DNA of 64,000 bases, from IMG/VR virus record IMGVR_UViG_3300049830_000285, positions 113,709 to 177,708 of that record. One strand, given 5' to 3'. Below, in pieces: positions 9,236 through 63,248 of the stretch. Below the pieces are notes generated by a model, which had not been told where the DNA came from, searched no databases, and saw only the letters and a program-made list of their open reading frames with translations. Position 1 is the first letter of the stretch; every line of letters starts with the position of its first letter. The DNA comes from a virus. A program made the translations under genes and the position numbers.

Positions 9236-9562
9236 CTATTTCCTTTTCTTTCGTTCTTTCGAATTGTTAGACGAGCCACCCTGCGGTGTGTTTTGCTCAT
9301 ATTTTCTTCCAGTGATGTGTTGCTCGCTGTCAAGCCACCCAAGCCATTGCTTAACTTGAGAATACGCCCCACTATCAAACAAATATTGAATCATCACAAC
9401 CTTTTCGTTGTATTCGGTTCGTCGCTCCTTACTCCATCGGTTGGCGTTTTCTTTTTTACTAACCGAACCAAGGGTGAAAATTTTGTTCATTTCAGCAGCG
9501 GCGAGTTTTCTATCAATTGATGCGTCGGATTGATAGTTTCCGTTTTTTGTATTTTTAGCCAT
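9236..9562 (-). CDS. Hypothetical basic protein, 108 aa
   Basis: Not recognised. Rich in Lys, Arg, Asn and Ser, with a charged, probably disordered C-terminal tail (SNNSKERKKRK). The centre is helical (EYNEKVVMIQYLFDSGAYSQVKQWLGWL split over two helices). The start overlaps the end of the ADP-ribosylglycohydrolase gene by 8 bases and it ends 2 bases before pth2, so the three form one transcription unit. Confidence 0.7.
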   Translation of the reverse strand: MAKNTKNGNYQSDASIDRKLAAAEMNKIFTLGSVSKKENANRWSKERRTEYNEKVVMIQYLFDSGAYSQVKQWLGWLDSEQHITGRKYEQNTPQGGSSNNSKERKKRK

Positions 9563-10547
9563 AGATTAAACCGTGTAGTTGTTCTGCCTGTTCCATGATA
9601 ACATTTCCAAGCTCTAATTCTTGCAATAACAGGACTGGTAATGATTGTACACCATTTTGCGTGCCAATTAGCTGTCCTGTGATACTTCCTGTAGAATCTG
9701 AATCTCCACTGTGATTTACAGCATTAATTATCGCGTCTAAAAAGGTGTCATTTTTCAAAGCACAATAGATACTCATAGCTAGTGCTTCATCTCCAGTCCA
9801 TCCTTCTCCAATGTCGCTGAAATGCTCATGATTAAATTTGCTATCCAATGCATGTAATTCTTGAGCTAATTCCCATAATTTTATTGTTCCGCAGCTATTT
9901 TCTTCTTTCTTAATAAAATCAAAAGTGTCAGATTGTGCAATTTCAAATGTTTTATTATGATGGGTTATTAACGAAATCATTCGAGCAAGTGCCCCAGCGG
10001 GAATAAATCCATCAACATCGTGGTGGGTGACAAGAGCACACATCTTACCAGCACAATAAGCTTCATCTGGGTCATTGAGGGTTAATCCAATAGGTGCAGA
10101 ACGCATTACGCCACCACAACCTTTACTTCTATTGTTAATGGTTATTCCCGTGTCTTTTAGTTGTTTTAGCGACCCAAGGCAGGTTAGTCCCGGCGCTCTT
10201 TGTGACCAAAGTTCTTTATGTTGCATGATTTTTAAACGAGCGGCACCATCATAATCATTTTCTTGAGTTTCAAGCCAATATAAATATGCCTGTGTTAAAA
10301 TCACTTCAAATGGAATGCTTTGTCTAGATTGAAAAAATTGGCACAATGCATCAACGGTAAACATTGTCATCTGGGTGTCGTCAGTGATGGCACCTTTTCT
10401 ACCATAGGCAAAATCAAAATCTTGAATACCTTTTTCGCCATAAGCATGTTTTATGGCTCCCCATTTCATAAACTCAACCGGGGCACCCAAGGCATCTCCG
10501 ATAGCGCCGCCAGCCAAACATCCTTGAAAGCGCTCTAATGTGGTCAT
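9555..10547 (-). CDS. ADP-ribosylglycohydrolase (DraG/ARH family)
   Basis: 330 aa from the ATG at 10545-10547. Family hallmarks in order: FQGCLAGGAIGDALGAP, AITDDTQMTMF (Mg-binding DDT), GCGGVMRSAPIG and HSGDSDSTGSITGQLIG (second metal site). The family removes ADP-ribose from arginine or other acceptors, or cleaves ADP-ribosyl groups from nucleic acids or small molecules. I chose this start because a TATAAT box ends exactly 6 bases upstream, a spacing repeated in dozens of genes here, and the first residues of longer versions lack family similarity. In a phage it could reverse ADP-ribosylation laid down by host defence; see also the NADAR protein at 55988 and NAD synthetase at 33616. Confidence 0.92.
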   Translation of the reverse strand: MTTLERFQGCLAGGAIGDALGAPVEFMKWGAIKHAYGEKGIQDFDFAYGRKGAITDDTQMTMFTVDALCQFFQSRQSIPFEVILTQAYLYWLETQENDYDGAARLKIMQHKELWSQRAPGLTCLGSLKQLKDTGITINNRSKGCGGVMRSAPIGLTLNDPDEAYCAGKMCALVTHHDVDGFIPAGALARMISLITHHNKTFEIAQSDTFDFIKKEENSCGTIKLWELAQELHALDSKFNHEHFSDIGEGWTGDEALAMSIYCALKNDTFLDAIINAVNHSGDSDSTGSITGQLIGTQNGVQSLPVLLLQELELGNVIMEQAEQLHGLIYG

Positions 10548-10566
10548 GTGTATATTATACTCTATA

Positions 10567-11148
10567 TTAAAATCCTCTAGCTTTCCTAGCATGGTGCAGT
10601 AGACTTCTGGCTGCCTCTTCTGCTTCTTCTGGCTTTAAAGCCATCCAAGAAATGGTTTGCGAGAAATCAGTTACAACACAACCGTCTTCATGACCTATTC
10701 TCCATTTGAAATCCTGCGATGGCGCTGCTTGCTGTGTGGTTTCGGATTCATAAAATGGAACAAATTCACCGACAATAAAGGAGGATATCTTCCCGAGATT
10801 CATGTATTTTTTGTCTGCCTTCGGTAAAACAACAATAGCTAACACAGAGTCGTCTAACGGCTGAATTCTCAACGAGTGCTCTCCGCTAATGATTTCATAT
10901 TCAAAACCAGTTTCGCCAATGACTTTACTCCAATGCTGCCCGTGGCTTATGTGTAATTCACACATACCTGAAATAATTTTCACAGCAAAATTATTCATCC
11001 AATCCCATGATTGAATTTTATCAATTTTATGAAGTTCTAACACCCAATCATCAACGACGCAATGAACAGAACTCGTGCCGCATGAAATCCACTTGCCCTT
11101 TAATAGCCGTGGCATATCATTTTCCAGTTTACGCAAAGCGTTAAGCAT
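10567..11148 (-). CDS. Hypothetical protein, 193 aa
   Basis: Not recognised. Mixed alpha/beta, few cysteines; the C-terminal EEAEEAARSLLHHARKARGF is helical. Start at 11146-11148 chosen because a TATAAT box (minus strand, 11155-11160) lies 6 bases upstream; a longer reading frame exists but would begin upstream of the promoter. It is divergent from coaE and shares the 50-bp promoter region with it; upstream of the ADP-ribosylglycohydrolase in the same direction but with its own promoter. Confidence 0.7.
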   Translation of the reverse strand: MLNALRKLENDMPRLLKGKWISCGTSSVHCVVDDWVLELHKIDKIQSWDWMNNFAVKIISGMCELHISHGQHWSKVIGETGFEYEIISGEHSLRIQPLDDSVLAIVVLPKADKKYMNLGKISSFIVGEFVPFYESETTQQAAPSQDFKWRIGHEDGCVVTDFSQTISWMALKPEEAEEAARSLLHHARKARGF

Positions 11149-14783: not shown

Positions 14784-15364
14784 AAATTACACTCCTTAAG
14801 CGCAGGGTCGTTCGTTAAAAGCATGGCAATCACAAAAGCGTGACCCATTTTTTTCTTGGGATTATTCAACACGTCTCGCAGCGTATTCCCCAAATCGTTG
14901 TACATGTATCCGTCAAAATCTCGCAAAGCTATATCTTGACCGCCTTCATGGAGTAATTCCAGTTCTTTGTAAGCGGCAGTTTGTACGACGCGCTCAGCAT
15001 ATAAAGGCGCATAGATTTTCTTTCTTGCTTCGATGTAATCTAAGGGTTCACCGTCCCACCAAGAAAACAATGGCTTAGCGCCTCTGCCCATCGGATATCG
15101 GTCTGCCCATTTTTTACTCCAACCCGTTTTTGCCCATTCAAAATATTCGTCAGTTGGCATATTATTGTCATCAACTTGACTTGCATAAACTTTTGAATAT
15201 TGCCATGCATTTTCCATGTTGAGGCTAGCATAATCATCATACAATTTGCAAGGCCCAAGTTTAAATGGACTTAGAGCTTGAAATTGATTGGTTGAACGAC
15301 TTGTTGTATTAACCTCAAGCGCACCATTTGGCACTGTGTCATACATAGATAATACGTAAATCAT
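14780..15364 (-). CDS. Hypothetical protein, 194 aa, conserved-looking
   Basis: ATG at 15362-15364 overlaps the folD stop (tail-to-head coupling). Residues ~35-60 read LGPCKLYDDYASLNMENAWQ and later a Trp-rich segment LFSWWDGEP. The layout (loop, then E-N-A-W-Q-Y-S-K) is loosely reminiscent of NADAR-type 'E..yQ..K' motifs, but the similarity is too weak to assign. No signal peptide or membrane segment. I do not recognise the family with certainty. Confidence 0.6.
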   Translation of the reverse strand: MIYVLSMYDTVPNGALEVNTTSRSTNQFQALSPFKLGPCKLYDDYASLNMENAWQYSKVYASQVDDNNMPTDEYFEWAKTGWSKKWADRYPMGRGAKPLFSWWDGEPLDYIEARKKIYAPLYAERVVQTAAYKELELLHEGGQDIALRDFDGYMYNDLGNTLRDVLNNPKKKMGHAFVIAMLLTNDPALKECNL

Positions 15365-16209
15365 GCTTGCTCCCAATATGCATCTATGAGGTTGGATAGC
15401 AATGTCGCCACCGTCATTGGGCCAACTCCACCGGGAACTGGTGTGATGTAGCTCGCCTTGGGAAAAACTTCATCATATCGAATGTCACCCACGGCAACAT
15501 CATTAACTATGGCGTAACCACAATCAACGGCAACAACTCCATCCTTTAAATCAGCGCCTCGAATTAATCCCGGTACACCAGTCGCAGAAATAACAATATC
15601 TGCGTTAGCTAAAAGCTCTGGCATGTTTTTGGTGTACTTGTGAGTTATGGACACTGTTGCATCGCGCTCAATCATCATTAACGCCATTGGTCTACCTAAG
15701 ATAATGCTACAGCCCACGACAACAACATTAGCTCCTCGCAATGGAATGTTATAGTTGTCGAGTAAACGAATTATTCCAAGAGGCGTAGCGGCTCGATGAC
15801 CTTTCATTCGACTTGCAAGCAATCCCACTGAAAGCGGCGAAATACCATCCACGTCTTTTGAAACTTTAACAGTGGACAAAATTTGAGATTCATCTATAAA
15901 AGATGGCAATGGGTGCTGTACCAAAATACCATGAACGCCATGGTCTTCGTTTAAGCGATGCACTAATTCAAACAATTCAACCTGAGTTGTATTTTCGTTG
16001 ACAAAATAAGCTTCACTTTCAGCGCCAATTTGAGCCGCCCATTTGCGTTTCATTTTAACATAAGAAAGGCTCGGCGCATCTTGCCCTGCGACAATCACTG
16101 CTAATTTTGGCTTGACTGGCATTGTGTCAACTTGCAATTTAAGTTGTTCTAATGTCGATTTCGCGAGAGATTTTCCATCAAGTAAAGTGCATTCAGCCTG
16201 CGAGGTCAT
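15361..16209 (-). CDS. folD: Methylenetetrahydrofolate dehydrogenase / cyclohydrolase
   Basis: 282 aa, the normal FolD length. Family motifs: YVKMKRKWAAQIG (catalytic Tyr/Lys region), GILVQHPLP, DVDGISPLSVG, AATPLGIIRLL, VVVVGCSIILGRP (NADP-binding) and PGGVGPMTVATLL. It interconverts 5,10-methylene-, methenyl- and 10-formyl-THF, supplying one-carbon units for purine and thymidylate synthesis and for fMet-tRNA formylation. The start is fixed by a near-perfect promoter: TCCTCA, 17 bp, TATACT, 6 bp, ATG. First gene of the minus operon running to 14397. Confidence 0.95.
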   Translation of the reverse strand: MTSQAECTLLDGKSLAKSTLEQLKLQVDTMPVKPKLAVIVAGQDAPSLSYVKMKRKWAAQIGAESEAYFVNENTTQVELFELVHRLNEDHGVHGILVQHPLPSFIDESQILSTVKVSKDVDGISPLSVGLLASRMKGHRAATPLGIIRLLDNYNIPLRGANVVVVGCSIILGRPMALMMIERDATVSITHKYTKNMPELLANADIVISATGVPGLIRGADLKDGVVAVDCGYAIVNDVAVGDIRYDEVFPKASYITPVPGGVGPMTVATLLSNLIDAYWEQA

Positions 16210-25555: not shown

Positions 25556-25631
25556 TGGTACTCAGAACAGGAGTCGAACCTGCATAAAACTCCTTGTAAC
25601 GAAGCTGTTACTGCCTTTGCACTATCTGAGC
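25556..25631 (-). tRNA. tRNA-Val (UAC)
   Basis: Acceptor GCTCAGA/TCTGAGT, anticodon loop GTTACAA, T-arm GCAGG-TTCGACT-CCTGT, encoded CCA. D-arm is short (3 bp). Confidence 0.88.
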
Positions 25632-25632
25632 A

Positions 25633-25953
25633 TTAATTGAAGGCTAAATCGCTGAGTATCTTGTCGTAGATACCACCCATTCCTTCTTCCTGTTGCTGAA
25701 CAAGTTTGACAATATCTCGAATAACTTCTGAAGTGTTGGAGTTGATGTCAATATGTATTCTGTTTTTTTCATTGCTTAATTCCAAAAAATAACAACCCTC
25801 GTTGCCAACTACTACCTTCCATTCTCCAACAAATGTTTGCCATCTGTCGTATCCTCGGTTAATCCGAGTCCATTTGAGTTTATTGTCACAAGTTTTCTTT
25901 TCGATTTCTTCGGCAATTTTCATTTGCTTATGGCTGTATTCTGTCATAAGCAT
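25633..25953 (-). CDS. Hypothetical protein, 106 aa
   Basis: KIAEEIEKKTCDNKLKWTRI near the start, beta strands with WKVVVGNEGCYFLEL and a C-terminal helix. ATG may be at 25953 or 25947. Wedged between two tRNAs. Function unknown. Confidence 0.6.
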   Translation of the reverse strand: MLMTEYSHKQMKIAEEIEKKTCDNKLKWTRINRGYDRWQTFVGEWKVVVGNEGCYFLELSNEKNRIHIDINSNTSEVIRDIVKLVQQQEEGMGGIYDKILSDLAFN

Positions 25954-25969
25954 CAGTTTACCATAAAAA

Positions 25970-26055
25970 TGGTCGGCATGGCAGGACTCGAACCTACGTG
26001 AACTTTCGCTTCCATCTTATCAGGATGGCACTCTACCAATCTGAGTTACACGCCG
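25970..26055 (-). tRNA. tRNA-Ile (GAU) with long variable region
   Basis: Acceptor CGGCGTG/CATGCCG, anticodon loop CTGATAA, T-arm GTAGG-TTCGAGT-CCTGC, encoded CCA. The variable region is ~14 bases, unusually long for tRNA-Ile, which normally has 5. Confidence 0.82.
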
Positions 26056-26058
26056 AAA

Positions 26059-26538
26059 TTATTCTGTTTTCAAGCATTGAGCTATTTGCTTGATTAAGGT
26101 GTCAGAAGTGACATAGGAGGCTAAACTGCAATAAAGAGAAGAAGACTGAAGTTCAGCAATGTAAGAATTAACCTTGGCAACAAGTTCTTCAATGGCTTTC
26201 TTCTCAGTGCTATTTTTGTATTTGTAAGCCTTAATGATATCTAGTTTTTGTGTGAAAAATTCTATGTCAAACGTAGCATCTACATTACCAATGTCAATAA
26301 GCTTTACTCCCTCAAATTGCTGGATGATATTTCGCTCATCTGGAGTCGTTGAACAAGTTACCATTGGGCCTTCAATAAAAACGTGCATGCCCATATAATC
26401 ATAAATTTGCACTTGATGCAATCGCGCAAACATGAGCGACATGTAGTCTTCATCTTCCAAAAAGATTTTGGTGTATTGGACTTCAGTTTTCTCTTCACCT
26501 AAGGTTCGAAAAGAACGACATGTGCTATGGCTAATCAT
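26059..26538 (-). CDS. Hypothetical protein, 159 aa
   Basis: Begins MISHSTCRSFRTLGEEKTE; mixed alpha/beta; C-terminal helices. TATGCT ends 6 bases before ATG (26536-26538). Not recognised. Confidence 0.65.
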   Translation of the reverse strand: MISHSTCRSFRTLGEEKTEVQYTKIFLEDEDYMSLMFARLHQVQIYDYMGMHVFIEGPMVTCSTTPDERNIIQQFEGVKLIDIGNVDATFDIEFFTQKLDIIKAYKYKNSTEKKAIEELVAKVNSYIAELQSSSLYCSLASYVTSDTLIKQIAQCLKTE

Positions 26539-26586
26539 AGTCACAGCATACCTGAAAGTTGTTGCCGTTTTTAGGCGGCAACAATC

Positions 26587-26952
26587 TCATTTTCGTCGCT
26601 CGAAGCTCACCTCAACAGAATAGTATGTATCCAGATTAGCGCACCAACGAATCACGAGTGACCCCTTGAATGTACCAATACGGTAAAACGTCCACAGCAA
26701 ATCTGAATCGTCTTCCGAAGAAGATTCATCAGCATATGCGACTGGGGCTCCGACGAGACTTTGTGGGTCTCCGCAGATATCCTCAATGTAAACGAGTTCA
26801 CAGCAATCCTGCCCGTGATACATGATGTAAGACTCCGTTTCGTCTACAGTAAACACGATTTCGTCGCGATTTACCTTGACATCACTTAATATCTTTCCAA
26901 CAAGGTCACTGAACTTTGGCGATGGTTGTCTAGTTGTTTGTATGTTTGTCAT
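26587..26952 (-). CDS. Hypothetical beta-rich protein, 121 aa
   Basis: ATG at 26950-26952; beta-rich sequence (SYIMYHGQDCCELVYIEDIC), acidic stretch DESSSEDDSDLLW and C-terminal strands. Resembles small immunity-type folds only in composition. Function unknown. Confidence 0.6.
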   Translation of the reverse strand: MTNIQTTRQPSPKFSDLVGKILSDVKVNRDEIVFTVDETESYIMYHGQDCCELVYIEDICGDPQSLVGAPVAYADESSSEDDSDLLWTFYRIGTFKGSLVIRWCANLDTYYSVEVSFERRK

Positions 26953-27080
26953 ATCAATGTCGCGCAACAAACTATAGAACAATTCTAATATACTTCAAAA
27001 ACCACCACTTATAAGCTTTTTTTGATTATTTTTTAAAAAGGCCTGAATTTCCGTGTCTCCATTGTCGTTTTATATATGTA

Positions 27081-27338
27081 ATGAAAAACTTACGTAACAT
27101 TAACCTCTCGCCAAAAACACAATCCGAAGTCTACGCTTGGATGACTTGCGCAATTCTCGCGCACACTCGAATGGGCGTTAGTTTTACTCCCAAGGGAGCG
27201 AAACTCGCAAAGGAGATTAAAATGGCTCCTGAAGCATTTTTAAAGGTAGTGGATGAGCTACAGAAAGAGAATGCGTTCGGCTTCACTGAGTTAACAAGCG
27301 AAGAAGCGGAAGAGCTTAAACGTTGGGTGAAAGAATAA
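27081..27338 (+). CDS. Hypothetical helical protein, 85 aa
   Basis: Helical, KTQSEVYAWMTCAILAHTRM then acidic C-terminus ELTSEEAEELKRWVKE. -10 TTATAT ends 5 bases upstream of ATG. Opposite strand to its neighbours. Confidence 0.65.
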   Translation: MKNLRNINLSPKTQSEVYAWMTCAILAHTRMGVSFTPKGAKLAKEIKMAPEAFLKVVDELQKENAFGFTELTSEEAEELKRWVKE

Positions 27339-27356
27339 CATCATGTTGAAAAAATT

Positions 27357-27435
27357 TGGTGGAGGATACGGGATTCCAACCCGTCTGTTTTCTTCCTTGC
27401 AAAAGAAGCGACCACCGCCAGTAGTCCTATCCCCC
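27357..27435 (-). tRNA. tRNA-Ala (UGC)
   Basis: Acceptor GGGGGAT/ATCCTCC, anticodon loop TTTGCAA, T-arm ACGGG-TTGGAAT-CCCGT (C56 replaced by G), encoded CCA. The stop codon of 27427-27792 lies in its 5' end. Confidence 0.88.
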
Positions 27436-27792
27436 ATATTGTGACGTTGTTTCGTATGAATCATCAACGTCAAGTTTGTCATCCACTTTTGTGGATTTGT
27501 GAATGTCTCGCCACCCATAAGCGCGTGTCCTGGGATTGCACAATCCGCAATCCCAGGAACATCCAACAAATTTCTTTTTGCCCTCGTGTCTCCACTTGCC
27601 TTCGTTTCTGTAAAGGCGACGAAAGCATTTGGTGACAAATTCGTGGTTAGTTGGAACCAAGATGTAGCCTCTCTCTGGATGGCGAACATACATCTCAGTT
27701 TCCTGAGATTCTTCTGCCCACCAACTACGATTCCAAATACGTCGTTTAATTAACGCAGTTTTTGCTCTGCGTTCAGCTCTTGTGTGTTTCAT
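27427..27792 (-). CDS. Hypothetical basic protein, 121 aa
   Basis: MKHTRAERRAKTALIKRR is a strongly basic N-terminal helix; middle has W-rich and CSWDCGLC segment. ATG is 3 bases after AGGA. Preceded by a promoter and a 10-codon ORF (27819-27851). May bind nucleic acid; function unknown. Confidence 0.65.
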   Translation of the reverse strand: MKHTRAERRAKTALIKRRIWNRSWWAEESQETEMYVRHPERGYILVPTNHEFVTKCFRRLYRNEGKWRHEGKKKFVGCSWDCGLCNPRTRAYGWRDIHKSTKVDDKLDVDDSYETTSQYGG

Positions 27793-27818
27793 TATCCTGT
27801 CTTAGATGGCTATGCCGT

Positions 27819-27851
27819 CTAATACACAGAATGTTTTCCAAAGTATTTCAT
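27819..27851 (-). CDS. Tiny leaderless ORF (10 aa) upstream of 27427-27792
   Basis: TCCTCA (27881-27886), 17 bp, TATAAT (27858-27863), 6 bp, ATG (27849-27851), MKYFGKHSVY and TAG. The promoter fits exactly the leaderless form, so a 10-residue peptide would be made before the main gene. It could be a leader or attenuator peptide. Confidence 0.4.
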   Translation of the reverse strand: MKYFGKHSVY

Positions 27852-27886
27852 GAGTTCATTATACTACGAAATACTCACGTTGAGGA
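27849..27886 (-). promoter_or_regulatory. Leaderless-type promoter
   Basis: Perfect TCCTCA-N17-TATAAT-N6-ATG on the minus strand driving the tiny ORF and probably 27427-27792. Confidence 0.7.
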
Positions 27887-27902
27887 AATTTGGTGGAGGA
27901 GG
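27885..27902 (-). pseudogene. tRNA-Ala 3'-end remnant next to HNH gene
   Basis: Bases 27879-27899 match 27346-27366 (3' end and flank of the tRNA-Ala at 27357) at 19 of 21 positions, including CCTCCACCA. The rest of the tRNA is missing; the HNH gene stop lies 4 bases away. This looks like a duplicated tRNA cut by HNH insertion. Confidence 0.6.
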
Positions 27903-28619
27903 TTATCTTAATCTCGATTTTCGACCATTGCCTTTATTTAAAATACCGTATGTTGGAGTTAACGCATGACAATTTGGGCAAATCAATTCTAGGTTTATTT
28001 CTTTAGAATCTGTTGAATCGCCGTTAATATGATTTACTTGTAACGGAATCTTTTTAGTAATAGGATGCTTTTTTGACCATCCACATTGTGAACATTGCGC
28101 TCGATATTTTTCATGTAAAAACCTTCTAATATGATTGCTTATTCCCCCGCTTTTAGTGTTTCCAGAAATTTCACCTTGCTGCCATTTCGCAATGTAATTT
28201 TCATATTGTAAATTTTTTCGATGAATAGTACAATATTTTGAACCTGTAGTTTTAACATTGCAAATACAACAATGATATGTTCGCTTAATAGCTTGTCCGT
28301 AGAAAGATGGTTTAATGTTTGGCAGCCCATCAATAGATTGCGCCTTGTCTTTACATATTCTAGAACAAAAGTGAAGTCCTGATTTGCTTCTTGAAAATTT
28401 GCTTTTTGACCGCGTTATTGTTTGATTACACCAAGCACAAAATTTTTCAATATTAGTGATTAAATTGACATGCTTTTGTCGGCACTCACGAGAGCAAAAA
28501 TGAGATGGATGTTTGTTAATCTCTTTGTTTAATTTAAGAAAAGTTTTTTCACAACCAGTACATGTGACTTCTGAAGCTGAGCGATTTTTACCGTAACTAT
28601 CTTTGATATATAGGTTCAT
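27903..28619 (-). CDS. HNH endonuclease with multiple zinc knuckles
   Basis: 238 aa. Several CxxC pairs (CTGCEKTF, FCSRECRQKH, CAWCNQT, CCICNV) lead into the C-terminal HNH: CSQCGWSKKHPITKKIPLQVNHINGD, LELICPNCHALTPT. The zinc-rich N-terminus is probably the DNA-recognition region. It lies in the tRNA array and adjoins a tRNA remnant, as homing endonucleases do. Confidence 0.85.
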   Translation of the reverse strand: MNLYIKDSYGKNRSASEVTCTGCEKTFLKLNKEINKHPSHFCSRECRQKHVNLITNIEKFCAWCNQTITRSKSKFSRSKSGLHFCSRICKDKAQSIDGLPNIKPSFYGQAIKRTYHCCICNVKTTGSKYCTIHRKNLQYENYIAKWQQGEISGNTKSGGISNHIRRFLHEKYRAQCSQCGWSKKHPITKKIPLQVNHINGDSTDSKEINLELICPNCHALTPTYGILNKGNGRKSRLR

Positions 28620-28672
28620 AATATAGCATTTAATCCGTTGGTGGAGTATACCTTCTTTGCGCTGTGTAAAAA

Positions 28673-28748
28673 TGGTGGAGATAGCGAGATTTGAACTCGC
28701 AACCTATTCAATGCCATTGAATTGCTCTCCCAATTGAGCTATATCCCC
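28673..28748 (-). tRNA. tRNA-Ala (GGC)
   Basis: Acceptor GGGGATA/TATCTCC, anticodon stem ATTCA/TGAAT, loop ATGGCAT, T-arm GCGAG-TTCAAAT-CTCGC, encoded CCA. Confidence 0.92.
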
Positions 28749-28759
28749 AGTTGATATCT

Positions 28760-28833
28760 TGGTCGGCATACTAAGAATCGAACTTAGATAAATCGGTTAT
28801 CAGCCGAACCCTCTACCATTGAGGTATATGCCG
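28760..28833 (-). tRNA. tRNA-Ile (GAU)
   Basis: Acceptor CGGCATA/TATGCCG, anticodon stem TTCGG/CCGAT, loop CTGATAA, T-loop TTCGATT, encoded CCA. Confidence 0.92.
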
Positions 28834-28837
28834 AGGT

Positions 28838-28911
28838 TGGTAGGCAGTGAAGGAATCAAACCTTCACTTCTCCCTAATCAGGGGAGCAGTCTATCATTAA
28901 CTTAACCGCCC
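28838..28911 (-). tRNA. tRNA, anticodon GAU (Ile-type), U37
   Basis: Acceptor GGGCGGT/ACTGCCT, anticodon stem CTCCC/GGGAG, loop CTGATTA. Position 37 is U where a purine is expected. T-loop TTTGATT. Encoded CCA. Confidence 0.85.
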
Positions 28912-28926
28912 ATGTGTGGAATAAAT

Positions 28927-29005
28927 TGGTGGAGGGCACGAGACTCGAACTCGTCTGCTGTCCATATTGCAAGTATGGCAATCACACCAGGCAATTCCGC
29001 CCCCC
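28927..29005 (-). tRNA. tRNA-Ala (UGC), second copy
   Basis: Acceptor GGGGGGC/GCCCTCC, anticodon stem CCATA/TATGG, loop CTTGCAA, T-arm ACGAG-TTCGAGT-CTCGT, encoded CCA. Body differs from the other Ala-UGC at 27357. Confidence 0.9.
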
Positions 29006-29022
29006 ATGTGTGATTAAAATTG

Positions 29023-29097
29023 TGGTGGGCGATGAGGGATTCGAACCCCCGACCAATAGAATGTAAATCTACTGCGCTTCCGCTGCGCCAATCGCCC
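29023..29097 (-). tRNA. tRNA-Val (UAC)
   Basis: Acceptor GGGCGAT/ATCGCCC, D-stem GCGC/GCGC, anticodon loop TTTACAT, T-loop TTCGAAT, encoded CCA. The C-terminal codons and TAG of the HNH gene 29069-29437 lie inside its 5' half. Confidence 0.92.
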
Positions 29098-29437
29098 TTG
29101 GTATTTCACACAATCCAGCGTGAATTTTAGCATGACAGTTTCTACATACCAAAACGCATTTATCCATTTCAGCTTGTAGTCTTTTCAGTGAAACCATCTT
29201 TCTGACCAATGTTGCTACACAATCATCTTTGTCTTTAAGATGGTGAAAATCTAAACATACGATTTCTGATTCTCCACAACAAACACAAGGATTTTTTTGC
29301 TTCCATGCGTCTACATGGGCTTTATTTCTTTCTCGCTTACCCTGTCTATGGAATTTAGCATTTTCTTTTTTTCGTGCAGCATTTACTGGATTAGCATACC
29401 AATTTTGGTGATAGATTTTTCTTTCTTCGGCGTTCAT
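29069..29437 (-). CDS. HNH endonuclease inserted beside tRNA-Val
   Basis: 122 aa. CVCCGESEIVCLDFHHLKDK (HH core), LQAEMDKCVLVCRNCHAKIH: near-paralogue of 31179-31541. N-terminus is basic (ARKKENAKFHRQGKRERNK), probably DNA-binding. Its last nine codons are made of the tRNA-Val 5' half, and a truncated second tRNA-Val lies just upstream, pointing to insertion at a tRNA-Val target. Confidence 0.88.
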   Translation of the reverse strand: MNAEERKIYHQNWYANPVNAARKKENAKFHRQGKRERNKAHVDAWKQKNPCVCCGESEIVCLDFHHLKDKDDCVATLVRKMVSLKRLQAEMDKCVLVCRNCHAKIHAGLCEIPRAIGAAEAQ

Positions 29438-29475
29438 AGGTGTTTATTCTTATACATATGTTTACACACCTCTTT

Positions 29476-29517
29476 TCTCCGTGTAAAAGAGTAACTCTAC
29501 CGCTGAGTTAATCGCCC
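29476..29517 (-). pseudogene. Truncated tRNA-Val (5' half only)
   Basis: Starts GGGCGAT-TA-ACTC, D-loop AGCGGTA, then an anticodon loop TTTACAC; the T-arm and acceptor 3' strand are missing. It resembles the intact Val at 29023, and the HNH gene start lies ~40 bases downstream. Likely split by HNH insertion. Confidence 0.6.
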
Positions 29518-29544
29518 GTAAAAGACGGAAAGCGAAAACCATAT

Positions 29545-29600
29545 TGCCTATCGAACCCAACTTAATGGGATTAGAAGTAATGACTTTCATAGCCGCCTAA
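29545..29600 (-). pseudogene. Degenerate tRNA-like sequence
   Basis: Has a D-arm-like 5' part (GGCGGCTATGAAAGTC) and GGGTTCGAT T-loop core, but anticodon and T-stems do not close. Probably a decayed tRNA. Confidence 0.4.
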
Positions 29601-29604
29601 ATCT

Positions 29605-29679
29605 TGGTATCCGCACTGAGACTTGAACTCAGAACCTTTCGCTAATCAGGCAAACGCGCTACCATTGCGCCATACGGAT
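29605..29679 (-). tRNA. tRNA, anticodon GAU (Ile-type), U37
   Basis: Acceptor ATCCGTA/TGCGGAT, D-stem GCGC/GCGC, anticodon stem TTTGC/GCGAA, loop CTGATTA (U37 again, as at 28838), T-arm CTGAG-TTCAAGT-CTCAG, encoded CCA. Confidence 0.85.
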
Positions 29680-29697
29680 ATATCGGTGGATTAAAAT

Positions 29698-29772
29698 TGG
29701 TGGGCAGTGTGAGAATCGAACTCACTTCGTTTCCGTGTAAGAGAAACTCTATTACCAAATTGATAACCGCCC
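29698..29772 (-). tRNA. tRNA-Val (UAC), third copy
   Basis: Acceptor GGGCGGT/ACTGCCC, weak D-stem, anticodon loop CTTACAC, T-loop TTCGATT, encoded CCA. Confidence 0.85.
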
Positions 29773-46503: not shown

Positions 46504-46579
46504 TGGTGCCCCAGGCGAGACTCGAACTCGCGGCTTTCACGTTCGAAGCGTGAATCTCTATCCACTGAGTTACCGGGGC
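46504..46579 (-). tRNA. tRNA-Arg (UCG)
   Basis: Acceptor GCCCCGG/CTGGGGC, D-stem ACTC/GAGA, anticodon stem TCACG/CGTGA, loop CTTCGAA, T-loop TTCGAGT, encoded CCA. Confidence 0.92.
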
Positions 46580-46594
46580 ATGGTTGATTAAAAT

Positions 46595-46683
46595 TGGAGC
46601 GCACGACAGGATTCGAACCTGCATTTGAGATTATCTCACTCCTTTAACTAATATAGTTTCGAAGACTACTGGTGTACGTGCGC
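46595..46683 (-). tRNA. tRNA-like (anticodon UCG), D-arm absent
   Basis: Acceptor GCGCACG/CGTGCGC, T73, CCA and T-arm GCAGG-TTCGAAT-CCTGT are canonical. The acceptor is followed by 7 bases (TACACCA), then an anticodon arm GTAGT-CTTCGAA-ACTAT; the D-arm is missing, and the variable region (30 bases) carries a TGAGA/TCTCA hairpin. Confidence 0.6.
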
Positions 46684-46697
46684 GTTTTTAAGAAAGT

Positions 46698-46772
46698 TGG
46701 AGCATGAGCAGAGAATCGAACTCTGTCCCCTGATTTTGCAGACCAGTACCTAAACCATTTGGCTTCTCATGC
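46698..46772 (-). tRNA. tRNA-Cys (GCA), second copy
   Basis: Acceptor GCATGAG/CTCATGC, U73, anticodon stem CTGGT/ATCAG, loop CTGCAAA, T-arm CAGAG-TTCGATT-CTCTG, encoded CCA. Confidence 0.92.
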
Positions 46773-46788
46773 ATTTGTTGATTAAATT

Positions 46789-46864
46789 TGGTCTCCTTGA
46801 CTGGACTCGAACCAGCGGTCTCAGCCTTCGCAGGGCTGTGTTTTATCCTCTAAACTACAAGGAG
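46789..46864 (-). tRNA. tRNA-Arg (GCG)
   Basis: Acceptor CTCCTTG/CAAGGAG, D-stem GTTT/AAAC, anticodon stem CAGCC/GGCTG, loop CTGCGAA, T-arm GCTGG-TTCGAGT-CCAGT, encoded CCA. Confidence 0.92.
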
Positions 46865-46867
46865 ATA

Positions 46868-46942
46868 TGGCTGAAGAGACTAGATTCGAACTAGTATCCA
46901 AATTGTTCAAAGCAATTTATCCTACCTTTAGACGACTCTTCA
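46868..46942 (-). tRNA. tRNA-Gln (UUG)
   Basis: Acceptor TGAAGAG/CTCTTCA, G73 as in tRNA-Gln, anticodon stem AATTG/CAATT, loop CTTTGAA, T-arm ACTAG-TTCGAAT-CTAGT, encoded CCA. Confidence 0.92.
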
Positions 46943-46951
46943 ATATTTTTT

Positions 46952-47025
46952 TGGCTGAGGAAGCTAGATTCGAACTAACATTTTTCGGGTCAGAGCCGAT
47001 TTTCCTACCTTTAGAAGATTCCTCA
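46952..47025 (-). tRNA. tRNA-Gln (CUG)
   Basis: Acceptor TGAGGAA/TTCCTCA, G73, anticodon stem ATCGG/CCGAA, loop CTCTGAC, T-arm GTTAG-TTCGAAT-CTAGC, encoded CCA. Clearly a paralogue of the flanking Gln tRNAs. Confidence 0.88.
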
Positions 47026-47072
47026 GTATTTCTTTCACACTATTCAATTTTCAATGTACGTTTTTAAAGTTT

Positions 47073-47148
47073 TGGCTGAAGAGGTTAGACTCGAACTAAC
47101 ATTTCACAAATTCAAAGTTTGGGTTCCTACCAATTAGAAGACTCTTCA
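47073..47148 (-). tRNA. tRNA-Gln (UUG), second copy
   Basis: Acceptor TGAAGAG/CTCTTCA, G73, anticodon loop CTTTGAA, T-arm GTTAG-TTCGAGT-CTAAC, encoded CCA. Third of the Gln trio. Confidence 0.9.
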
Positions 47149-47488: not shown

Positions 47489-47654
47489 ATTTTTTGTTTA
47501 AATCGTCTTTTGAAGCTTCATTAAGTTCAATATCTCGCTGAGTATATGTTCTGAAAGTTCTACTTATGCGTTTACCGCTAAGAGCTTGACGGCTATGAAG
47601 TCTTCGATAGTCGTAGACTTTCATCATAAACCAAATGTAGAAATTCTTAAACAT
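47472..47654 (-). CDS. Small basic protein, 60 aa
   Basis: MFKNFYIWFMMKVYDYRRLH start, then a basic helix and a Lys/Ser tail. ATG coupled to the radical SAM stop (8-base overlap). Function unknown. Confidence 0.6.
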   Translation of the reverse strand: MFKNFYIWFMMKVYDYRRLHSRQALSGKRISRTFRTYTQRDIELNEASKDDLNKKSSKSS

Positions 47655-48597
47655 TGCTTAATTCTCTTGGTGTATGCACCATTGGGAGTCCATTACCAAT
47701 AGTTTTCTTTGCGAACTTAGTGTTGTTGCGCATCCATTCTTGAACGTACCAAAGCTGCCCACAGCCACCACCGATGTCGTCTTGTCCTGCTGGGTCAAAA
47801 CATCTGGTGCTGAAACCAAGATTCATAAGCTTGGACATAAAGTTTTGCGCAAGCTCTCGTTGTCGTTGATTGGCAGCAGCGATTGATTCGTCTCGTTCGC
47901 AAATAACAGAAATAGTTGCTTGCCAAATACGAGGGTCGAACAAATCAGCAAGGCGTTGAGCGTCTGCATCGCTTGTGTTGTCGGCGTGAGCGCAATAGTT
48001 GTAGAAAGGTTGTCGTCCAGTTCGCTCGAAGAATTCAACTCCGCGCTCTGCAATCTGCGCAAGTGTGAGCTTTTTCTTGAAAGGAATCAATTTATCACGA
48101 TTTTCGTCAGTTGATTCATGAACTGAAAATTGTAATCCGATGGTTGGGATTTGCTCAGCGGCTTCGAAGAGAGGATTGTAGTCAACATCTGGCGCTGATG
48201 TGCTAATGAGAAGGGCTGCCCGTGGATGTTGTTCGTAAAGCGTGTGCATAGCTGGAATGAGCGCTTTGAGATTAAGAAGAGGTTCACCCATACTCATAAA
48301 CATGATTTGGAGCCGCTGGACATCTTTTGTGTCGATTCCCATGTCTTCAAACAAATGATTTGGTTGAGCAACGATTTCATCACTTGTAAGAGAACGAACG
48401 AAATAGTCTCCAGCTCCACAGAAACGGCAACCAATAGGGCAACCAGACATCGTAGAACAACAAACTACTGTGCGTTCATTGTAGGTTGGGTATTTGTAGA
48501 GAACTGATTCTGCGACAGCATTGTCAGTTGTGAAAACATACTTGAGTACATTCTCGTCCGAAGAAGCGATTCGTTTAACGTCAGACCAATTAGGCAT
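47647..48597 (-). CDS. Radical SAM methyltransferase, RlmN/Cfr-like
   Basis: 316 aa. CCSTMSGCPIGCRFCGAGD holds the CxxxCxxC [4Fe-4S] motif; FMSMGEPLLNL is the GEP motif; the C-terminal GQDDIGGGCGQLWY matches the RlmN CGQL segment with the methyl-carrying Cys. RlmN methylates A2503 of 23S rRNA and A37 of some tRNAs; Cfr acts on the same A2503. N-terminal accessory domain is absent. Phages rarely carry it. Promoter: TCCTCA (48626-48631), 17 bp, CATAAT, 5 bp, ATG. Confidence 0.85.
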   Translation of the reverse strand: MPNWSDVKRIASSDENVLKYVFTTDNAVAESVLYKYPTYNERTVVCCSTMSGCPIGCRFCGAGDYFVRSLTSDEIVAQPNHLFEDMGIDTKDVQRLQIMFMSMGEPLLNLKALIPAMHTLYEQHPRAALLISTSAPDVDYNPLFEAAEQIPTIGLQFSVHESTDENRDKLIPFKKKLTLAQIAERGVEFFERTGRQPFYNYCAHADNTSDADAQRLADLFDPRIWQATISVICERDESIAAANQRQRELAQNFMSKLMNLGFSTRCFDPAGQDDIGGGCGQLWYVQEWMRNNTKFAKKTIGNGLPMVHTPRELSNV

Positions 48598-48631
48598 TCC
48601 CTATTATGGCACAGTATTCGAGTTTTGAGGA
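48598..48631 (-). promoter_or_regulatory. Leaderless promoter of the radical SAM gene
   Basis: TCCTCA (48626-48631), N17, CATAAT, N5, ATG on the minus strand. Confidence 0.75.
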
Positions 48632-48906
48632 ATATATAGTGATGGTCTATCGAGGCATGGGAATAACAATTCTCTTAATTTGTCTTGCAAGATATTTTCA
48701 TAGACTGCATCTAGCCATTGATGCCTTGTTGTCATTGAAGCTGGTTTGCAATGTTGCTTGCCCTCAAAATAAACAGCGTATACTTCACCTTCATCTAAGT
48801 CATCAGTTTTATTGGCTGGAAAATAAGTGGTTGCATATTCTTTTCGAACGGCAAATCCATATGATTGGATAATCTTAATTTTATCTTGCGTAGTGACGTA
48901 AAGCAC
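48604..48906 (-). CDS. Hypothetical protein, 100 aa, GTG start
   Basis: MLYVTTQDKIKIIQSYGF start; TATAAT 6 bases before GTG (48904-48906). Small alpha/beta. Function unknown. Confidence 0.65.
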   Translation of the reverse strand: MLYVTTQDKIKIIQSYGFAVRKEYATTYFPANKTDDLDEGEVYAVYFEGKQHCKPASMTTRHQWLDAVYENILQDKLRELLFPCLDRPSLYIPQNSNTVP

Positions 48907-48921
48907 AAGTGAATTATACCA

Positions 48922-49644
48922 CTATTCGTCAATCGCCTCATTTTCTGAGGCGATTATGGCTCTTAATCGCCTCACTCTAGCTCTGGCTAATTCTTCAATA
49001 GCGCCTTTCTTAACTGCAAGGGCACGTTTTGAAGGAATCAAGTCGTAATGATGTGTGCGTTTATCTTGGAACCAACACCATTTAGTTTTATTTTTTGTGA
49101 GGGCAATATCCATACAATCCCAAAGACATGTTGCAATTGTGGCAGAGCACTCGGTAGCCTTCTGGATATTCATTTTTTCTGAGCCAATAATAGAATGAAT
49201 GTCCTCCTTTATTTTTTCCGAACAACTCTCTTCTGTGCTTTCCTCCTCCTCCGTTGATGTGGTCAATACACAAAAATTCTTTAGTGGTTTCTCCACAACA
49301 TTGACATTGGTTTCCGTATGCTTTAAGGGCGGTTGCTCTGTAATCGGCTTGTCTTTGTTTGGTTTGTGATAAAAGTGCGCATCGGTTGTCTTGATAGTAA
49401 TTGCTGTTAAATTCTTTGACACAAGTTTTGCATTTTTGTCCAGCGATTCTTGCTCCACCGCATTTTGAGCATATTGGTTTGTGTAGCGCCATTGCTTACA
49501 TATTGTACATGCAAGTGGTGTTTTTAGCCCAATTAAATCAGCCATAGCGTGCAATTCTTCATCAGAATCGGCTGTCATATGACACCAAACCTTCCATCTC
49601 AGTTTAGTGTCATATGTGCGAAGCTCGTCAACATAAACGCTCAT
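48922..49644 (-). CDS. DUF4031-type gene interrupted by an HNH ORF
   Basis: N-terminus MSVYVDELRTYD..KVWCHMTADSDEELH..ADLIGLK and C-terminus KWCWFQDKRTHHYDLIPSKRALAVKKGAIE match the two halves of the DUF4031 family. Between them, 49087-49521 (435 bases, divisible by 3) contains the HNH gene 49088-49492 in another frame. The long frame stays open through it, giving a ~240-residue protein with a ~145-residue foreign middle. Either a removed intron/insert or a broken gene; see findings. Confidence 0.75.
   Translation of the reverse strand: MSVYVDELRTYDTKLRWKVWCHMTADSDEELHAMADLIGLKTPLACTICKQWRYTNQYAQNAVEQESLDKNAKLVSKNLTAITIKTTDAHFYHKPNKDKPITEQPPLKHTETNVNVVEKPLKNFCVLTTSTEEEESTEESCSEKIKEDIHSIIGSEKMNIQKATECSATIATCLWDCMDIALTKNKTKWCWFQDKRTHHYDLIPSKRALAVKKGAIEELARARVRRLRAIIASENEAIDE
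49088..49492 (-). CDS. HNH endonuclease nested in a DUF4031 gene
   Basis: 134 aa. CSKCGGARIAGQKCKTC zinc site, CQCCGETTKEFLCIDHINGG core with H-N-H layout, LCHNCNMSLGLYGYCPH. TACAAT 9 bases before ATG may give it its own transcript. Its stop TAA sits exactly at the insertion border. Confidence 0.88.
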   Translation of the reverse strand: MALHKPICSKCGGARIAGQKCKTCVKEFNSNYYQDNRCALLSQTKQRQADYRATALKAYGNQCQCCGETTKEFLCIDHINGGGGKHRRELFGKNKGGHSFYYWLRKNEYPEGYRVLCHNCNMSLGLYGYCPHKK

Positions 49645-49646
49645 AA

Positions 49647-50291
49647 TTAACAATACGTTTCTGTTGTGTTCTCGTAACTCTTAATAGAGTCGTGAACTCG
49701 AACAATACCGAAGTCACTTGATTTCACTTTCACCATTCGACCATCTGGGTGGTGCCAAACGACACCCTCGATATTCTCTTTGGTAAGCTCCTCGCGAATC
49801 TCATCGAAAGTTCTTGGAAAGCTCATAAACGAAATATCACCGTGACTTCGCAAAATGTGGTCTGCTAAGTTCTCGGGATTTTTACCAGCACGAGTTCCAA
49901 TTTTAGGGCCACACAACTCGTATGTACCATTTGGATACATACCTGGATTAGCCTCATAAATACCTAAGACAAGTTTGTCATCTGGCAATTTACATGGAAC
50001 CCAGCCAGGTAAGTGACCTGTAATTGGGTCGAAGTCCTGGAGTTGAATAAAGCCCTCTGGTGGTTTACGGTTGTGAACACGCTTTTCACCAGTTTTATTG
50101 TCGATGGTGAATGCTTTAGCGTCATAGCGCTTAAACAATTGTCCATCTTGAATCATGATGGCAATGCCATCCCATTTACGAGTTGCCGTTCCTTCGCCGT
50201 TCTGCACCCACTCAGTACCAGGCGTCACCTGGTTAATCACTAAGCCGTCGTTGCTGTAATCACGCACGAAGAGAGTTGGAATTTTCTTCAT
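49647..50291 (-). CDS. RNA ligase, second family (KxDG)
   Basis: 214 aa. TRKWDGIAIMI (motif I KxDG), LVLGIYEANPG and TYELCGPKIG (central motifs), EGVVWHHPDGRMVKVK (motifs IV/V). Differs from the 22423 enzyme in its motif spacing. ATG at 50289-50291, with AAGG 5 bases upstream. The upstream region is full of tRNA-like debris, consistent with tRNA repair. Confidence 0.85.
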   Translation of the reverse strand: MKKIPTLFVRDYSNDGLVINQVTPGTEWVQNGEGTATRKWDGIAIMIQDGQLFKRYDAKAFTIDNKTGEKRVHNRKPPEGFIQLQDFDPITGHLPGWVPCKLPDDKLVLGIYEANPGMYPNGTYELCGPKIGTRAGKNPENLADHILRSHGDISFMSFPRTFDEIREELTKENIEGVVWHHPDGRMVKVKSSDFGIVRVHDSIKSYENTTETYC

Positions 50292-50324
50292 TTTACCTTG
50301 TTGTGAATGAAGTACAGCATTCAC

Positions 50325-62390: not shown

Positions 62391-63248
62391 TTAAGCTGGC
62401 AAGCTATATTCGATATTATGTAAAATGCGCTCAACATCTTCCTGTTTACCTTTCTGAATGGCCTGGTGTGGCGTTAATCCATCCAGCATCGAATGTTCTT
62501 GATGCATAAACTTATCGGCTGATTCGCCTAAAACTTGCTGAGCGAGTGCGGTAATGGATTCAAGAATATAAGCTCGTTCCCATTTACGGATAGCATTATC
62601 GCTAACGTTATATTGTCTACCAACAGCCGAATATGATGTCTCTTTTATCATTCGTTTAAGTTCAGTGTAAGATGGACGAATCAGCACCTTTCTAAATTTA
62701 CCTTTTGCATATTGTTTCGGACGACATGCTTTCGAACAAATTGTTTTTTTAGTTACACCAGGGTCAAATGTTTTGTTGCATACAGTGCATTGAATAAGGC
62801 GTTGCAATATCTTGATTTTTGTTTTACCTTTTTGTCTATTGGTTTCACTTTCTTCAAGCGCATAAATATGTAAACCAATCTTTAATTCTTCGTGATATTT
62901 TGTTAACACATCGGAATGAAAACCTGAATGACACTCTCTATGGCATCTGCAACATAGTAGAATACATTTATCTAATTCTGCTTTAATTTGTTCCCAAGAG
63001 CGCGTGTTGCCCGATTTACTTAGCCCGAAATCTTTTTTATTGGGGTCTAAATGATGAAAATCTAAAGCTCCAACGCACAAATCGTATGAGCAAACATAGC
63101 ATTTGCCACCTTTATAGCGAATAGATAATGCCTTTAAATCTTTTCTGCGTCTATCAACATTAAATTTTGATTTACACTTATGGCTACAGAATCTACCACC
63201 TTTGTTAACAGGCAAATTGCATAAATGATATTCACAAATCGAACTCAT
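62391..63248 (-). CDS. HNH endonuclease fused to an Xre/MbcA-type C-terminus
   Basis: 285 aa. Zn-knuckle RFCSHKCKSKF, HNH core CYVCSYDLCVGALDFHHLDP, LLCCRCHRECH (residues ~20-110); second zinc pair CTVCNKTFDP; HTH-like TSYSAVGRQYNVSDNAIRKW; then ESADKFMHQEHSMLDGLTPH and ILHNIEYSLPA, matching the end of 57294-57851. Either an HNH mobile element joined to, or truncating, an antitoxin-type gene. TATAAG 6 bases before ATG. Confidence 0.8.
   Translation of the reverse strand: MSSICEYHLCNLPVNKGGRFCSHKCKSKFNVDRRRKDLKALSIRYKGGKCYVCSYDLCVGALDFHHLDPNKKDFGLSKSGNTRSWEQIKAELDKCILLCCRCHRECHSGFHSDVLTKYHEELKIGLHIYALEESETNRQKGKTKIKILQRLIQCTVCNKTFDPGVTKKTICSKACRPKQYAKGKFRKVLIRPSYTELKRMIKETSYSAVGRQYNVSDNAIRKWERAYILESITALAQQVLGESADKFMHQEHSMLDGLTPHQAIQKGKQEDVERILHNIEYSLPA

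Follow-up and report, generated by a model that had tools for sequence, protein, structure and literature searches.

We identified an HNH endonuclease gene within the DUF4031 gene of an A+T-rich phage, where it reads in a frame of its own and leaves the frame of the host gene open. The arrangement is real and well defined, and from its sequence it is best read as belonging to the kind of hidden out-of-frame HNH insertion described for ShiLan and Pacc40. Sequence comparison establishes the split family match, the limits of the insert to within 6 bases, the openness of both frames, an HNH that is intact, a target position that is conserved and the lack of an intron or intein signature. We consider it probable that the insert is a homing HNH cassette in the DUF4031 gene that is not spliced, is tolerated as a long loop and is read through by the host frame.

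A DUF4031 gene in two halves

The window, the whole stretch of DNA that was analysed, comprises the last 64 kb of an IMG/VR virus record of 177,708 bases from a phage with a GC content of 40%. The host ORF (Table 1) matches PF13223 (DUF4031; Pfam, E = 4e-15; score 56 bits, cut-off 25.6) over two segments, which correspond to residues 3–41 at its N end and to approximately the last 50 residues at its C terminus. A whole-record search assigned the N half to profile positions 1–38 and the C half to positions 40–75, so no DUF4031 sequence is missing between the halves. The 5′ part of the gene is 61% identical to an intact homologue (L133), and in the homologue alignment the invariant residues of the family are retained at both ends of the ORF. 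The preliminary description of this locus had placed the HNH gene within one DUF4031 gene and the host frame as open across the insert; both points hold, as the two ends are halves of a single PF13223 match and the frame is open over all 240 codons.

Table 1 Features of the DUF4031 locus and of other genes mentioned, in window coordinates
Feature	Position	Strand	Description
Host ORF	48922-49644	minus	ATG start, 240 codons (240 aa), open throughout; an alternative TTG upstream would put the start at 49653
DUF4031 gene, 5′ part	49522..49644	minus	41 codons, MSVYVDELRTY...ADLIGLK; PF13223 match (profile positions 1–37 in the search with the ORF)
Insert	49081..49521	minus	441 bases, 147 codons; stop-free in host frame; ends uncertain by ≤6 bases
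HNH endonuclease ORF	49088..49492	minus	134 aa, 405 bases; ATG at 49492; TAA stop 49088-49090
Possible -10 box, TACAAT	49502..49507	minus	ends 9 bases before the HNH ATG; outside the 5–6 base peak of the phage
DUF4031 gene, 3′ part with stop codon	48922..49080	minus	[WC]WFQDKRTHHYDLIPSKRALAV...; PF13223 match
RNA ligase gene	49647-50324		PHROG 14301; DUF4031 ORF starts 2 bases downstream
Second, larger HNH gene of the same phage	62391-63248	minus	285 aa; PHROG 2255, E = 7e-26
ADP-ribosylglycohydrolase-like gene	9555-10592	minus	PHROG 6572
Tetrahydrofolate dehydrogenase/cyclohydrolase gene	15361-16209	minus	PHROG 7320

We derived the limits of the insert from an alignment to 46 uninterrupted homologues and from the spacing of two motifs. 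In the first IMG/VR set, 80/80 uninterrupted homologues place exactly two residues, in most cases R and one of S, K, R or H, between G-x-[KR] and W-F-Q; 76 of the 80 show the standard motif, in which the G is followed by four residues, and the other four keep the same spacing with a variant of W-F-Q. On this spacing, the size of 435 bases (145 codons) given previously is corrected to 441 bases (147 codons). The insert takes the position listed in Table 1 if W-C is counted as host sequence; if T or T-P belongs to the host instead, it shifts by up to 6 bases to lower coordinates.

Flanked by the invariant G39 on one side and by the near-invariant W-F-Q on the other, the insertion site falls within the conserved core of DUF4031 and, according to the alignment, outside the variable loops of the family, a position that matches the expectation for a homing site. 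When the ends of the insert were checked for a direct repeat or target-site duplication, AAA was all that they share in register. A CTAAA repeat was rejected as a target-site duplication, since its copies are 442 bases apart and would break the frame. An inverted 7-base match, AACACCA/TGGTGTT, was spotted by eye at the edges of the insert.

Homologues were collected from >300 phage records and from the IMG/VR loci of two profile scans, with the best 80 kept from each scan; the two IMG/VR sets overlap and yield 117 distinct homologues at 85% identity. The insert, the HNH or a long middle region is absent in all 117 of these non-redundant homologues, and the insert is likewise absent from DUF4031 in the phage records listed. 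The observation that the preliminary description had named as speaking against an insertion, HNH-less homologues that already have the long middle, is thus made neither in the IMG/VR sets nor in the phage records listed. Of the second IMG/VR set, 78/79 homologues are uninterrupted, and the one exception (L277) is split over two frames without an HNH-sized gap. Protein search, N-end profile and junction pattern gave no second carrier of the insert in collections that may omit near relatives of the record.

The HNH nuclease

The HNH ORF is in the third frame (offset 2) relative to the host frame and occupies 405 of the 441 insert bases, with 36 bases outside. Its product matches PHROG 2255 (HNH, E = 6e-8) and PHROG 2914 (endonuclease VII), keeps every invariant residue of a 37-sequence alignment (C63, C65, C66, H78, L116, C117, N119, C120, N121 and P131) and is modelled by AlphaFold with a pLDDT of 91; taken together, these three results indicate that the HNH is intact. 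It has the features of an endonuclease VII-type enzyme, namely Cys pairs with a DH...N...N motif and the family profile match among the PHROGs. PF02945 (Endonuclease_7) is matched by 5 of the 37 HNH relatives, and the window protein by itself has no significant Pfam match. Viral relatives number 51 (33–62% identity) in one search and 80 in another, the two sets overlapping; no sequence relatives were found in the PDB, and a Foldseek search with the HNH model returned the HNH nucleases 9qgx and 4h9d as weak top matches (E above 0.1).

One relative (L360, 35% identity over residues 8–134) lies inside a sequence that Rfam matches as a group I intron (L360:1771-2484; E = 5.5e-5, under the curated threshold). 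This intron of 714 bases interrupts a major-capsid-like gene (named by eye), in which a stop follows shortly behind the first exon. Comparison with this intron-borne relative supports a homing ancestry of the HNH, and the main reading is supported by comparison with the published ShiLan and Pacc40 cases.

Several loci were considered as further hidden cases and rejected. In the G+C-rich DNA of L005/L313, L318, L348, L366 and L388 the frame is open, but it does not continue into a gene at both ends; L360 proved to be the intron in the capsid-like gene; and L382/L383 is an HNH fragment that overlaps the start of a thymidylate-synthase-like gene (named by eye).

Intron and intein signatures

The insert gave no Rfam intron match at E up to 1, with one chance match to a microRNA family as the only result, and its RNA fold is less stable than those of shuffled sequences (z = +1.8). 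The same Rfam scan, with L360 as positive control, detects the group I intron of that locus, so the scan is able to see an intron of that sort. With 36 bases outside the HNH ORF, no match to a catalytic core (P3–P7) and no stable fold, a group I intron was rejected, in agreement with the earlier remark that the insert has no space for such a core. An intein was rejected as well: in the 240-aa ORF Pfam finds DUF4031 as the only domain and no Hint or splicing domain, and the HNH lies outside the host frame. With the ends placed at 49081-49521, the insert starts with T and finishes with K, which departs from the C/S/T-N-C/S/T junction residues of an intein.

Openness of the host frame

We estimated by synonymous resampling of the HNH ORF how often the host frame would be open by chance. 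The expected number of host-frame stops is 2.7–3.8, and the probability of no stop is 3.1% with the codon usage of the phage, 1.2% when the synonymous codons of the ORF itself are permuted and 0.6% when codon order is shuffled. Among other long ORFs, 0/326 segments of 134 codons are open in the corresponding frame, and all 21 HNH relatives from loci with <46% GC have stops in this frame, 2–9 each. A length divisible by 3 contributes a further factor of 1/3, giving a joint chance of ~0.2–1%. Chance stops are expected at 2.7 in the offset-2 host frame versus 13.4 in the other frame. The combination of open frame and right length is unusual, but within chance for a case picked for being open; because the case was noticed for this very property, the statistics are suggestive and not decisive.

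Expression and structure

AlphaFold modelled the complete 240-aa ORF with pLDDT values of ~90–97 at both DUF4031 ends and 32–83 in the insert. The ends are thus confidently modelled, the insert is predicted as a loosely structured excursion between helix and strand, and the two DUF4031 ends may pack together. A Foldseek search with the host-ORF model yielded no significant match, perhaps owing to the long insert.

No Shine–Dalgarno site was found at the HNH start; Shine–Dalgarno-like motifs are present in 11/53 genes of the phage. A -10-like hexamer (TATAAT, 5/6 positions) ends exactly 5–6 bases before the ATG in 16/52 ATG ORFs of ≥120 aa, compared with 2.7% of background ATGs, a leaderless-promoter signature that occurs throughout the minus-strand genes of the window. 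The putative TACAAT box (Table 1) weakly suggests a possible near-leaderless HNH start within the insert.

We infer read-through translation, tolerance of the loop, homing and expression of the HNH, perhaps from a near-leaderless start, and propose the following mechanism. A homing-type HNH gene with little flanking sequence of its own would have inserted at a conserved DUF4031 site, and splicing would remove the insert from neither RNA nor protein. With a length divisible by three and no stop in the host frame, the insert would be traversed by ribosomes that translate DUF4031, and they would produce one 240-aa DUF4031 protein with a ~147-aa loop between helix and strand. The HNH would be translated separately from its own ATG, and the nuclease would presumably cut the uninterrupted gene in co-infecting relatives, whereupon repair would copy the insert in.

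Gene neighbourhood

The window contains 20 tRNA genes, and we noted a tRNA run at 25556-29772 in which copies of Ile(gat), Ala(tgc) and Val(tac) are repeated. The DUF4031 gene is flanked by a tRNA cluster plus a radical SAM gene and by an RNA ligase gene (46504-47148, 47647-50324), and in mycobacteriophage prophi86-1 (L142) DUF4031 is situated among tRNA genes. A possible connection between DUF4031 and tRNA or RNA repair may deserve attention.

Alternative explanations

The preliminary description had offered a removable element, a tolerated double-coding insertion and a recent disruption, and had chosen none of them. The tolerated double-coding insertion is now the best supported of the three and belongs to a published kind (PMC11855218). 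Its main rival is a recent disruption, in which an HNH gene happened to insert in frame into a DUF4031 gene that is dispensable and dead, so that the open frame would be meaningless. An open frame of the right length has a chance of 0.2–1% per insertion in a case chosen for its openness, one carrier is known, and a recent event would leave the DUF4031 ends looking intact. However, the conserved residues of the family are kept at both ends, and two published insertions likewise leave this frame open, with the HNH at an identical offset; we therefore regard a disruption as unlikely. Mobile HNH genes are frequently intron-borne, as is a relative of the window HNH (L360), and the conserved site resembles those of introns and inteins. 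An insert excised from RNA or protein by an unrecognised mechanism would fit these observations, but the 36 non-ORF bases, the lack of an Rfam match, a fold no more stable than shuffles and the lack of an intein domain in the host frame argue against it, and removal would need no open frame. With neither intron nor intein signature, the removable element of unknown type lacks positive support, and we consider it very improbable.

The DUF4031 halves might also function as separate peptides, like the mobE-split NrdA of Aeh1, which would make the open frame irrelevant; mobE in nrdA (Aeh1) and mobA in T4 gene 60 provide the precedent (PMC2988022). Here, however, the first half has no stop after it, the second half has no obvious start signal, and the halves measure only ~41–53 residues each of one small domain, all of which renders a gene in pieces highly improbable. 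Finally, an HNH gene from elsewhere could have been misjoined into the DUF4031 gene during assembly. The locus comes from one metagenomic record, and the junction pattern retrieved no second copy; yet an artefact would need two wrong junctions in the same gene, in frame and with no host residue lost, and is hardly credible.

Implications

Homing endonucleases that occupy conserved genes are usually thought to depend on a self-splicing intron or intein to spare the host. A hidden out-of-frame HNH would be another route beside these two, and the tolerated insertion described here would represent an independent case in another gene and another nuclease family. New are the host gene (DUF4031), the nuclease family and the base composition (40% GC) of a hidden-HNH insertion. 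Its occurrence in a phage of 40% GC, where host-frame stops are expected, points to a wider spread of the route, and whether selection keeps the frame becomes a countable question. As a tentative generalization, which we hold to be possible rather than probable, frame-preserving double coding may be a general convergent lifestyle of intron-less homing endonucleases, in which unrelated HNH families, in host genes and phages that are likewise unrelated, settle in the one relative frame that keeps the host readable. If so, a nuclease could occupy a conserved gene without intron or intein, and this A+T-rich case would be one in which selection, rather than base composition, accounts for the open frame.

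Comparison with known systems

In mycobacteriophage methylases, the ShiLan domain forms an insertion of 202 aa that keeps the frame, has no stop and conceals an HNH read in another frame (Arsenault, Gosselin, Gogarten, Genes 2025; PMC11855218). The same paper reports Pacc40 as a second, different hidden insertion, describes no sign of an intron or intein, and proposes a tolerated loop for the insert and leaderless translation for the HNH. According to an earlier paper by the same authors (PMC9957025), the distribution of the ShiLan domain is patchy and the domain is horizontally transferred. We re-read both genomes for the frame comparison. ShiLan gp65 contains a 195-aa HNH at offset 2, with a GTG at insert base 18 and a TAA in the last 4 bases, and Pacc40 gp60, a host gene that stays open, contains an alternate-frame HNH/AP2-like ORF of 159 codons, also at offset 2.

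Like ShiLan, the window has an in-frame stop-free insert at a conserved site, a complete HNH ORF at offset 2 that nearly fills the insert from near its 5′ end to its last few bases, neither intron nor intein signs, and no clear ribosome site. The two differ in host gene (DNA methylase in ShiLan versus DUF4031), length of the insert (202 versus 147 codons) and base composition (64% GC for the ShiLan insert versus 40%); the patchy spread is established for ShiLan, whereas the window insert is known from one carrier. No relationship between the window HNH and the ShiLan HNH was detectable (blastp E = 1.3, hhalign probability 0.5%), the window nuclease being endonuclease VII-type and of another family. 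A shared nuclease is no requirement of the kind, since Pacc40 too is published as a different insertion. Pacc40 resembles the window in its alternate-frame ORF at offset 2 in an open host gene, and differs in host gene and nuclease annotation. The same resampling applied to the ShiLan insert gave P = 3.5%, which means that G+C content is not in itself enough to render the ShiLan open frame trivial. Offset 2 is common to the window, ShiLan and Pacc40, and fewer chance stops are expected there, which fits a filter for open host frames.

Phage HNH group I introns such as that of L360 also place a related HNH in a phage gene, but L360 has a recognisable group I intron spanning 714 bases and an early stop downstream of exon 1, and the window insert has neither. 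Older, looser precedents (PMC2988022; see also PMC10448857) are mobE in nrdA of Aeh1 and mobA in T4 gene 60, HNH insertions that split the host gene. As in the window, an intron-less HNH gene resides in a conserved phage gene, and in Aeh1 the function of nrdA is retained despite mobE. In these cases, however, the host gene consists of two coding regions, whereas in the window the host frame is continuous.
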